DNA of 59,603 nucleotides from Nitrospirota bacterium (GCA_021811105.1 JAJZPM010000017.1:1-59603); one strand, 5' to 3'. Shown: positions 893-3,655, numbered from the stretch's first letter. Numbers and translations are program-made. Notes: generated from the sequence alone by a model not told the origin.

Positions 893-2113
893 ATGCTGAA
901 ACTCTTCAACACATTCGGAAGAAAGATCGAACCCTTCAGGCCGGTCAACAGGAAAGTCGTTACCGTCTTCACCTGCGGTCCTTCGGTCTATCAGAGGTCG
1001 CATGTCGGCAATTTCAGGACCTTTCTGTTCGAGGACGTACTCGTGCGGTATTTCGAGTATTCGGGGTATGCGGTAAAAAGGGGGATGACCATTACCGATA
1101 TCGAGGACAAGGCTATCGAGGAGGCCGCAAAGAGAAAGACAAGCGTCGGGCATCTTGCAGACGAAAATCTCAGGGTCTTCATAAAAGAGATGAAGCTGCT
1201 CAGGATGAAGATACCCGATTACCTTTCGAGGGCTTCGGAGAGCATCGGCCAGTCGGTCGAGATCATCAAAAAGCTCCTCTCACGCGAGGTCGCGTATCGT
1301 CATGAAGGCAACATCTATTTCGATCCGACGCGGTTCCCGGGGTTCGGGCAGTTGTACGGTCTCGATATGAGTAAATGGCCGAAAGAAAAGAGGCGGTTTC
1401 ACAAAGACACCTATCCTGGCATGAGATGGAACCGCGGCGACTTCATACTCTGGCACGGGTGCAGGGAGGGCGATGCAGTCTGCCTGGAGACGGAAATCGG
1501 GAAGGGAAGGCCTTCCTGGAACGTGCAGGACCCGAGCATGGTGGCGCGCCACTTCAGCGAGACGCTTTCGGTCTACTGCGGCGGGATCGACAATCTCATC
1601 AGGCACCACGACTATTCGCGGGCTGTACTTGAATCGGTGCGGCCTCATCCGATGGCGAGGTTCTGGCTCCACTGCCTGCACTTGCATGTGAAAGGGCAAA
1701 AGATGTCCAAGAGCAAGGGGAACATCTACTATGTTGATACGCTCCTGAAAAAGGGCTATACCCCGGAGGAAGTCAGGTTTTTCCTGATCTACGGACACTA
1801 CAGGGAGAGGTTGAATTATACAGAGTCGAATATGAAGAAGGCGGCCGGGAAGCTGAGAGATTGCAGGGGCGTGGTGAAGAAGATATCGGGAAAAGCTTCT
1901 TCTTCGCCGGACGAAGCTGCGGCCCTTGAAGTACGGGAGATCTTTACGGCAAAGATGGACGACAACCTTGACGTGCGTTCGGCATTCGACGCGTTGCAGG
2001 GTTTTCTATCCGGTGTCGACGTTCCGAAACTGAACCCGCGGGAAGCGGCCGGGATCTTAAAGGCCCTGAAAGAGCTCGACCGGGTCCTCCAGGTGATCTT
2101 CCCTGTTGAATAA
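893..2113 (+). CDS. Divergent cysteinyl-tRNA-synthetase paralogue (class I aminoacyl-ligase fold)
   Basis: This 406-residue protein aligns from its first residue with CysRS. It has Cys28 in FTCGPSVY, a HIGH-like HVGN at 37-40, TDIEDK, and a perfect KMSKSKGN at 270-277. In E. coli CysRS the zinc that recognises cysteine is held by C28, C209, H234 and E238. Aligned here, C28 and the His (H238) are kept, but the second Cys is Asp (D213, in WNVQDPSM) and the Glu is Ser (S242, in HHDYSRAV). The HGGG signature is CGG. The protein also lacks roughly the last 50 residues that help bind the anticodon. ATP activation of a carboxylate is therefore likely, but cysteine-tRNA charging is doubtful. MshC is another known CysRS-derived ligase of similar length. 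It is followed after 18 bases by a radical SAM gene, probably co-transcribed. The RBS is AAAGGGA before ATG. Confidence 0.85.
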   Translation: MLKLFNTFGRKIEPFRPVNRKVVTVFTCGPSVYQRSHVGNFRTFLFEDVLVRYFEYSGYAVKRGMTITDIEDKAIEEAAKRKTSVGHLADENLRVFIKEMKLLRMKIPDYLSRASESIGQSVEIIKKLLSREVAYRHEGNIYFDPTRFPGFGQLYGLDMSKWPKEKRRFHKDTYPGMRWNRGDFILWHGCREGDAVCLETEIGKGRPSWNVQDPSMVARHFSETLSVYCGGIDNLIRHHDYSRAVLESVRPHPMARFWLHCLHLHVKGQKMSKSKGNIYYVDTLLKKGYTPEEVRFFLIYGHYRERLNYTESNMKKAAGKLRDCRGVVKKISGKASSSPDEAAALEVREIFTAKMDDNLDVRSAFDALQGFLSGVDVPKLNPREAAGILKALKELDRVLQVIFPVE

Positions 2114-2131
2114 AAAGAAGAAGAGTCCGAC

Positions 2132-3655
2132 ATGATCCTTATCCATCCACCTGTTGCAAAGCCTTCGGAACCTCCCGCGGGTATCGCCAGACTGTCCGGT
2201 GCATTAAGCGCATACGACATATCGCACAGGGTAGTAGACGCAAACCTCGAAGGTCTTCTTCATCTTTTGGAAAAAGCTTCCTGCCGTTCTGCGGACGGGC
2301 TGGACACATGGACAAGGCGTGCAGTACGGAACGTACCGAAGAATCTCATGGTGGTGAGGGATGCTGCGTCTTATCGGGTCCCGGACCGTTATAAAAGAGC
2401 GGTCATGGACCTCGCCCGCGCGATGGAATCTTCCTGCCGCGGGACGCGCGTTACCCTCGGGCTCGCGAATTATCAGCGGCAGGACCTCTCGCCGCTCAGA
2501 TCGGCCGACCTCATCTTTGCCGCGAAACACCCTGAACTCGATCCGTTCTATCCTTATTTCAGCCGACGAATCGAAGGCCTGCTCGAAGAATCCGTACCGT
2601 CCGTCTTCGGTTTCTCCCTGAATTATCTCAGCCAGGCGCTGACGACTTTTTCGATGATAGGGCATCTGAAAAAAATATTGCCTGAGGCGGCGATAGTGCT
2701 CGGCGGCGGCCTGGTCACCTCCTGGGTGCGCGGGCCTGCGTGGAAAGACCCGTTTCAGGGACTCGTCGACCGCTTCGTTGCGGGCCCGGGGGAAGGGCCG
2801 CTTCTTTCGATGATGGGGGCCGATCAGACGACGCAGAGGCTCTTCAGACCGGACTACCGCGCATTCGCCATGACGGACTATCTTTCGCCCGGACCAGTCC
2901 TTCCCTACAGCGCGTCGGCAGGCTGCTACTGGAACAGATGTTCCTTCTGCCCGGAAAATGCCGAGGGCAACCCTTATGTACCCTTTACTCCGCGACGGGT
3001 CCTTGCGGACCTCGGAGCTATTCTGCCGGAGACAGATACGGCACTCATCCACCTGCTCGACAATGCGGTCAGTCCTTCTCTGATGAAGGCTCTTGCCGAT
3101 AATCCACCTAGGGCTCCCTGGTACGGCTTCGCCCGTTTCAGCAGGCAGTTGACCGACATTGATTTCTGTATGTCGCTCAGGCGCTCCGGCTGTGTCATGC
3201 TGAAACTCGGGCTCGAGTCGGGAGATCAGGACGTCCTCGACCGCATGCAAAAGGGGATCGACCTCAATACCGCGTCCGCGGCATTGAAGACTCTTAAGAA
3301 GGCTGGCATCGGGACTTATGTCTATCTCCTCTTCGGTACCCCGGAAGAGACCCTTCCATCTGCAAGGAAAACGCTCGACTTTACCGTCAGGCACAGGGAT
3401 GAGATCGGCTTTATGAATATTGCGGTGTTCAATATGCCGGTAAACGCAGTGCCGCCCGGCATTGCGGTAAGCGGTTTCTATGAGGGCGACCTGTCCCTCT
3501 ACACAGATTTTGTCCATCCCTCCGGCTGGGACCGCAGGGCTGTGAGAAATTTCCTGGAGAATGAATTCAGGCGCAGCAGGCCGGTCTCCACCATACTAAG
3601 AAAAGACCCGCCTGTCTTCACCTCGAACCACGCCCCGTTTTTTCTGATGGGATAA
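2132..3655 (+). CDS. B12-binding-type radical SAM protein linked to the CysRS paralogue
   Basis: The protein has 507 residues. It opens with HPPVAKPSEPPAGIARL, typical of the N-terminal cobalamin-binding-like domain of B12 radical SAM enzymes, and VLGGGLVTSW near residue 190 fits the same fold. The iron-sulfur cluster motif is C265, C270, C273 (GCYWNRCSFC), a CX4CX2C spacing instead of the usual CX3CX2C. LGLESGDQDVLDRMQKG and a C-terminal TIM-barrel pattern follow. Such enzymes make a 5'-deoxyadenosyl radical for methyl transfer or rearrangement on an unknown substrate. The gene starts 18 bases after the CysRS-like gene, which suggests that the two act together, possibly on an aminoacyl or peptide substrate. 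The substrate cannot be read from the sequence. Confidence 0.85.
   Translation: MILIHPPVAKPSEPPAGIARLSGALSAYDISHRVVDANLEGLLHLLEKASCRSADGLDTWTRRAVRNVPKNLMVVRDAASYRVPDRYKRAVMDLARAMESSCRGTRVTLGLANYQRQDLSPLRSADLIFAAKHPELDPFYPYFSRRIEGLLEESVPSVFGFSLNYLSQALTTFSMIGHLKKILPEAAIVLGGGLVTSWVRGPAWKDPFQGLVDRFVAGPGEGPLLSMMGADQTTQRLFRPDYRAFAMTDYLSPGPVLPYSASAGCYWNRCSFCPENAEGNPYVPFTPRRVLADLGAILPETDTALIHLLDNAVSPSLMKALADNPPRAPWYGFARFSRQLTDIDFCMSLRRSGCVMLKLGLESGDQDVLDRMQKGIDLNTASAALKTLKKAGIGTYVYLLFGTPEETLPSARKTLDFTVRHRDEIGFMNIAVFNMPVNAVPPGIAVSGFYEGDLSLYTDFVHPSGWDRRAVRNFLENEFRRSRPVSTILRKDPPVFTSNHAPFFLMG

Follow-up and report, generated by a model that had tools for sequence, protein, structure and literature searches.

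The standard example so far of a cysteinyl-tRNA synthetase (CysRS) turned small-molecule ligase is MshC, the L-cysteine:GlcN-Ins ligase of mycothiol biosynthesis. MshC is a truncated CysRS, which retains the HIGH and KMSKS motifs and lacks the anticodon domain. In its crystal structures, zinc is held by C43, C231, H256 and the thiol of the substrate, and the alpha-amine is contacted by T46, T83 and the main chain of G44 (PMC9736012). Another CysRS without an anticodon domain, CysRS* of Desulfobacterales, charges an unusual selC*-type tRNA-Cys (PMC7609411). A search of the literature for CysRS paralogues of the type described below, and for synthetase paralogues and exporters, returned MshC and CysRS* only.

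Here, we analyse a stretch of 59,603 nucleotides from a Nitrospirota bacterium (the window), near one end of which lies a gene for a CysRS-like protein (Table 1). We use the name CYSL for the protein family that includes this gene product. We propose that CYSL is a tRNA-independent, MshC-like amino-acid ligase that evolved separately from MshC and whose product is exported, and that the radical SAM gene beside it is a chance neighbour; we put the probability of this reading as a whole at roughly one half. An adenylate-forming, biosynthetic role was also suggested in a preliminary description of the locus, and it is still the best reading of CYSL.

Table 1. Positions of CYSL, its active-site motifs and the related genes discussed in the text. 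Positions without a contig or locus name are those of the window.
Feature	Position	Strand	Evidence or remark
MATE-family exporter, C-terminal 208 aa	85..711	+	TIGR00797 matE, 7.2e-35; cut by contig start
MATE exporter, N-terminal part	G000:C60:121-891, edge of contig C60		
CYSL (406 aa), truncated CysRS paralogue and predicted amino-acid ligase	893..2113	+	ATG start; domain, alignment and fold matches
Cys28, first zinc ligand, kept	974..976	+	Alignment; invariant in CYSL family
HVGN (HIGH motif), ATP site kept	1001..1012	+	Sequence, alignment
Asp213 (GAC) for zinc ligand Cys209	1529..1531	+	Alignment; defining substitution, 60/60 members
Y228-C229-G230-G231 for HGGG	1574..1585	+	Alignment
HHDYS (238-242): retained zinc ligand His238; Ser242 replaces Glu238	1604..1618	+	Alignment
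KMSKS loop kept (KMSKSKGN)	1700..1714	+	Sequence, alignment
Radical SAM protein, 507 aa	2132-3655	+	Radical_SAM 3.9e-9; 18-base gap after CYSL
Canonical CysRS ORF, 707 aa	L002 1138-3261, contig G000:C10	-	N-terminal serine-acetyltransferase (CysE)-like part
selC*-like tRNA-Cys, anticodon GCA	G000:C10:25953-26043 (L228 50-144)	-	Above tRNA-Sec gathering threshold

CYSL matches CysRS throughout in a Pfam profile search (tRNA-synt_1e, 1.8e-69), with a score below the cut-off of the canonical model (TIGR00435 cysS, 282.7 bits versus 340) and far below that of the MshC model (TIGR03447, 176.5 bits versus 485.1). The protein is shorter than CysRS (461–490 residues) and ends where the anticodon domain would start; its PDB match stops at about residue 391–400 of the 461 in CysRS. 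An AlphaFold2 model (mean pLDDT 93.2) has its best PDB matches, along the length of the model, with CysRS (Z 47.9) and MshC (Z 42.7), and sequence identity to canonical CysRS is about 30% over the catalytic part. The preliminary description had called the protein a CysRS paralogue with HVGN and KMSKSKGN motifs, Asp213, Ser242, CGG in place of HGGG and no anticodon region, and our alignment agrees, with YCGG at the HGGG position. All 60 family sequences checked contain W[NS]xQD and HHDY, and none has the C-terminal domain. Comparison with a congener (94–95% protein identity) gives dN/dS values of 0.11–0.22, indicative of purifying selection. The invariance of the Asp and HHDY changes, together with these dN/dS values, implies that they are not due to chance or assembly errors. 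In-frame TGA codons in relatives were considered as candidate selenocysteine codons and set aside; they fall at the end of the alignment and look like ordinary stops.

The zinc ligands of E. coli CysRS, C28, C209, H234 and E238, align to Cys28, Asp213, His238 and Ser242 of CYSL, so the canonical zinc site is absent. The protein had earlier been described as lacking two zinc ligands. Both substitutions are real, but this wording is overstated, because in MshC, which still binds both zinc and cysteine, the Glu ligand is also Ser and likewise follows a Tyr (HHEYS versus HHDYS in CYSL). Ser242 is thus no argument against either, and of the two changes only Cys-to-Asp at position 213 signals a new substrate. 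MshC residues C43, C231 and H256 of the metal site correspond to C28, D213 and H238 in CYSL, while T46, T83 and G44, which contact the alpha-amine, correspond to S31, T68 and G29. CYSL therefore shares with MshC the missing anticodon domain, the ATP-site motifs and the equivalent of the alpha-amine contacts, and differs from it in the Cys, Cys, His site that binds cysteine, both cysteines of which are kept in MshC. By the alignment, the grip on the alpha-amino acid is kept and only the side-chain site altered, so that CYSL probably continues to use a small L-alpha-amino acid as its substrate. The Cys209-to-Asp change is accompanied by further pocket changes, H206N, E208Q and G225C, and together these suggest that cysteine is no longer the substrate. 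Synthetase zinc sites that contain a carboxylate or His, as in methanogen-type SerRS and in ThrRS, bind serine or threonine; by this analogy, serine or 2,3-diaminopropionate would be reasonable guesses. We do not conclude that CYSL has no zinc at all: many family members have Cys229, which a few replace by Thr or Ala, and, speculatively, C28, D213, H238 and C229 could still hold a metal. The metal site would be either Cys-Asp-His or none.

A radical SAM gene follows CYSL on the same strand, as first described; the open reading frame and the 18-base gap are confirmed. Its assignment to the radical SAM proteins stands. As to the label B12-type, the protein has weak similarity to families of that type (TIGR04479, 64 bits where the cut-off is 600), and Pfam finds no B12-binding domain in it. 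The preliminary description proposed that the two genes form one biosynthetic unit, which would adenylate a substrate and modify it radically. This gene order recurs in one congener, and within the window's family most genomes with CYSL also have the radical SAM gene. When we tested the partnership in 61 genomes and 13 neighbourhoods, however, adjacency proved to be confined to this genus. In relatives, orthologues of the radical SAM protein, mostly 55–63% identical, are encoded away from CYSL, and in 13 relatives (56–63% identity) the gene stands alone, its neighbourhoods showing no recurrent partner beyond two genes in three close relatives. Moreover, at least eight genomes have the radical SAM gene without CYSL, and two (G148 and G164) have CYSL without the radical SAM gene. 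We therefore reject the radical SAM protein as the partner of CYSL and regard it as a chance neighbour; that the two work as one unit now seems very improbable. The radical SAM orphan family has its own conserved features, an N-terminal HPPVAKPxEPPAGIARLSG segment and a GC[YF]W..C.FC (CX4CX2C) cluster motif. Separately, one Deltaproteobacteria MAG encodes another type of radical SAM-like protein (L037 7268-8542) 56 bp after CYSL, which looks coincidental.

The conserved partner of CYSL is instead an exporter, of either the MATE or the ABC-2 type. In the window, only part of the MATE gene is present, because the contig ends within it, which explains why it was missed at first reading. Its two halves match residues 9–265 and 249–456 of one MATE, and, as these pieces lie on two contig edges and overlap slightly, C60 and C87 are probably neighbouring contigs. 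A MATE of the same type lies directly upstream of CYSL, 3–242 bp away on the same strand, in about 20 loci, two of them from Desulfobacterota-type genomes. These orthologues are full-length, except that in L043 a contig edge leaves only a piece; the other flanks of CYSL vary. Of the 78 relatives whose status is known, both genes are present in 15, only MATE in 3, only CYSL in 5 and neither in 55 (Fisher 2e-9), and outside the window's family the respective numbers are 3, 1, 3 and 46 (p = 0.003), although the genomes are related, so these counts are not independent and are inflated by kinship. Phylum-wide, this MATE is found in 21 of 26 CYSL genomes and, among the roughly 340 genomes without CYSL, in about 15, the counts coming from two genome draws that overlap but are not identical. 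Four of the 21 genomes with both genes have them unlinked, and ten of the about 15 genomes with MATE and no CYSL belong to one family.

Other lineages have other exporters. An ABC-2 exporter, DrrAB-type or similar, adjoins CYSL in five Spirochaetota loci and in both Desulfohalobiaceae loci, and adjoins the sister gene discussed below in four of five Methanoperedens. One Nitrospirota genome (G018) lacks the MATE gene and has an HlyD-ABC-ABC2 set beside CYSL instead. Even with kinship-inflated counts, the presence of distinct exporter types in separate lineages leads to the same conclusion. As a control, the exporter queries were run near 14 radical SAM loci and matched only the window's own MATE. 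The linkage is not universal: such an exporter is not adjacent in about one third of the window-clade CYSL loci, nor in any of the Syntrophobacteraceae or Methanofastidiosia loci.

The rebuilt side-chain pocket of CYSL and its frequent position beside a drug-type exporter, in several bacterial and archaeal lineages, suggest that it probably makes a small secreted molecule and does not serve protein synthesis. CYSL would bind ATP and a small L-alpha-amino acid, form the aminoacyl adenylate at its intact HIGH and KMSKS sites, and pass the aminoacyl group to a small-molecule amine, a step comparable to that of MshC in the mycothiol pathway. The adjoining exporter would then pump the product out; this is MATE in Nitrospirota and some Desulfobacterota, whereas Spirochaetota, Desulfohalobiaceae and the Methanoperedens sister group have an ABC-2 exporter of the DrrAB or a similar type. 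The sequence, site pattern, family, phylogeny, exporter linkage and redundancy for Cys-tRNA are direct observations; the ligase reaction, its amino acid and acceptor, and the export of the product are inferred from them. No acceptor-making enzyme recurs beside CYSL, and the other recurring neighbours that could be identified look like housekeeping genes; the acceptor would thus have to be a common metabolite. There is a partial parallel in MetRS-like ligases predicted in non-ribosomal peptide pathways, some of whose operons include an efflux transporter (PMC2922099). These too are class I synthetase paralogues recruited as amide-forming ligases, but they derive from MetRS and have cupin and lysine monooxygenase genes as neighbours, whereas CYSL usually has the exporter only.

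That these exporters are of drug type, namely a MATE (matE, distantly related to EmmdR/YeeO and SolL) and a DrrAB-type ABC, lends some weight to a role in resistance or detoxification, in which CYSL would add an amino acid to a toxic compound that the exporter then removes, or would replace a CysRS hit by a drug. We consider this improbable. A stand-in for CysRS would require both the anticodon domain and the cysteine site. Among the neighbours of CYSL, we saw no recurring gene for resistance or regulation, and the PADLOC defence models have no match to it. It is also conceivable that CYSL transfers the aminoacyl group straight to a macromolecule, for instance a protein or a modified base in a tRNA. 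GluQ-RS and EpmA, which do so, are truncated synthetase paralogues that likewise lack the anticodon domain, and a macromolecular acceptor is compatible with the data on CYSL itself. This idea leaves the repeated exporter linkage across lineages unexplained, and we rate it a little lower still than detoxification. Should the ligase reading hold, it implies a secreted metabolite, so far undescribed, in anaerobes relevant to nitrogen, sulphur and methane cycling.

A further question is whether CYSL serves tRNA-Cys in translation. The preliminary description judged this unlikely and raised the matter of a normal cysS elsewhere in the genome; a canonical CysRS is indeed present, within a 707-aa ORF on another contig. 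(Many genomes of the order have an ORF of about 710–750 aa at cysS, which suggests that the CysE-CysRS fusion is widespread there.) Canonical CysRS is found in 13 of 14 listed CYSL-bearing genomes of the window's family and, whole or as fragments, in nearly all bacterial CYSL hosts covered by a wider search. SepRS is encoded in all ten archaeal hosts, five Methanofastidiosia with CYSL and five Methanoperedens with the sister gene, and nine of these ten lack canonical CysRS. The family is therefore maintained in hosts that can make Cys-tRNA without it, given cysS in the bacterial hosts and SepRS in the archaeal ones. No tRNA gene occurs in the window or in the 33 family loci scanned. Both the SepRS hosts and this absence of adjacent tRNA genes strengthen the initial judgement, and a role of CYSL in charging tRNA-Cys for translation is unlikely.

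A more specialised tRNA synthetase, comparable to CysRS*, deserves separate mention. Like CYSL, CysRS* is a second CysRS copy of anaerobic bacteria without an anticodon domain, and selC* tRNAs have been reported from Nitrospirae (PMC7609411). The window's genome itself has a selC*-like tRNA-Cys(GCA) in addition to tRNA-Sec. (The genuine tRNA-Sec lies on contig C78, and selC*-like tRNA-Cys is present in several genomes of the phylum.) The same type of tRNA, however, occurs in genomes without CYSL (G003, G005, G028, G033, G087) as well as in genomes with it, and in the former, canonical CysRS must serve it. The gene for CysRS* reportedly lies downstream of selC*/selB*; CYSL, in contrast, never adjoins a tRNA gene in the scanned loci, and no selB was recognised among the recurring CYSL neighbours inspected; the reported coupling of CysRS* is thus not seen here. 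The occurrence of CYSL in spirochaetes and in SepRS archaea, and the change of its Cys-binding zinc ligand to Asp, also argue against such a role, although CYSL and CysRS* were compared by description only. Since selC*-like tRNA-Cys occurs without CYSL, we do not favour a CysRS*-like function; it is unlikely, if a stronger contender than detoxification.

The phylogeny, which the preliminary description proposed to build with CysRS and MshC, places CYSL apart from MshC. CYSL forms a single clade (support 100/100) on a long stem, and is joined as sister (99/92) by a truncated CysRS-like protein from Methanoperedens in which both Cys ligands are intact. Together they nest among archaeal and spirochaete CysRS, while MshC falls elsewhere, on a long branch. 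Forcing MshC to join CYSL makes the tree 42 log units worse (AU p 0.035, or 0.014 when the sister is included), with MshC represented by one partial row (PDB chain 8hfm), retrieved with an MshC query sequence. Score and tree, with this single partial row, lead us to reject orthology of CYSL with MshC, and the placement implies that the anticodon domain was most likely lost separately in the two lineages. CYSL is in our view a variant of the MshC kind and not a member of MshC. Unlike canonical CysRS, whose fold it shares, CYSL lacks the anticodon domain, has a rebuilt zinc site and occurs alongside canonical CysRS or SepRS.

CYSL relatives are found in 26 of 396 Nitrospirota genomes and in about 12 of 247 Spirochaetota genomes, where the other matches are ordinary CysRS. 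Matches occur in 14 of 395 Desulfobacterota genomes, one of them (34% identity) not CYSL, and the family is also present in Methanofastidiosia. CYSL is a real, conserved and apparently undescribed subfamily of CysRS-derived, putative ligases. If they are ligases, it would be a second, independently derived lineage of CysRS ligases, with a rebuilt pocket and its own exporter. A broader proposal is that an exporter-coupled small-molecule pathway extends across three bacterial phyla and archaea, with cysteine swapped for another amino acid by the Cys-to-Asp change at the metal site, after an MshC-independent loss of the anticodon domain. We offer this only tentatively, and consider it the less probable of our two proposals.

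The Methanoperedens protein (L059, L060, L061, L063, L070) resembles CYSL in its length (about 403 aa), the missing anticodon domain, the TDIED motif, Ser31 and the neighbouring exporter. It differs in keeping Cys209 and HIE; Glu238 is Val in most sequences and retained in one. It is probably still a cysteine enzyme, and possibly an archaeal cysteine ligase in its own right. With the cysteine site kept in one and changed in the other, the Methanoperedens protein and CYSL would provide a natural before-and-after pair for a change of synthetase substrate. Finally, the plasmid collection contains matches to CYSL of about 30% identity or less only, mostly annotated as ordinary cysS or unannotated. 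Genes of this kind, CysRS-like and with about 30% identity to CYSL, are present on many Klebsiella plasmids, often with no annotated feature at that position.
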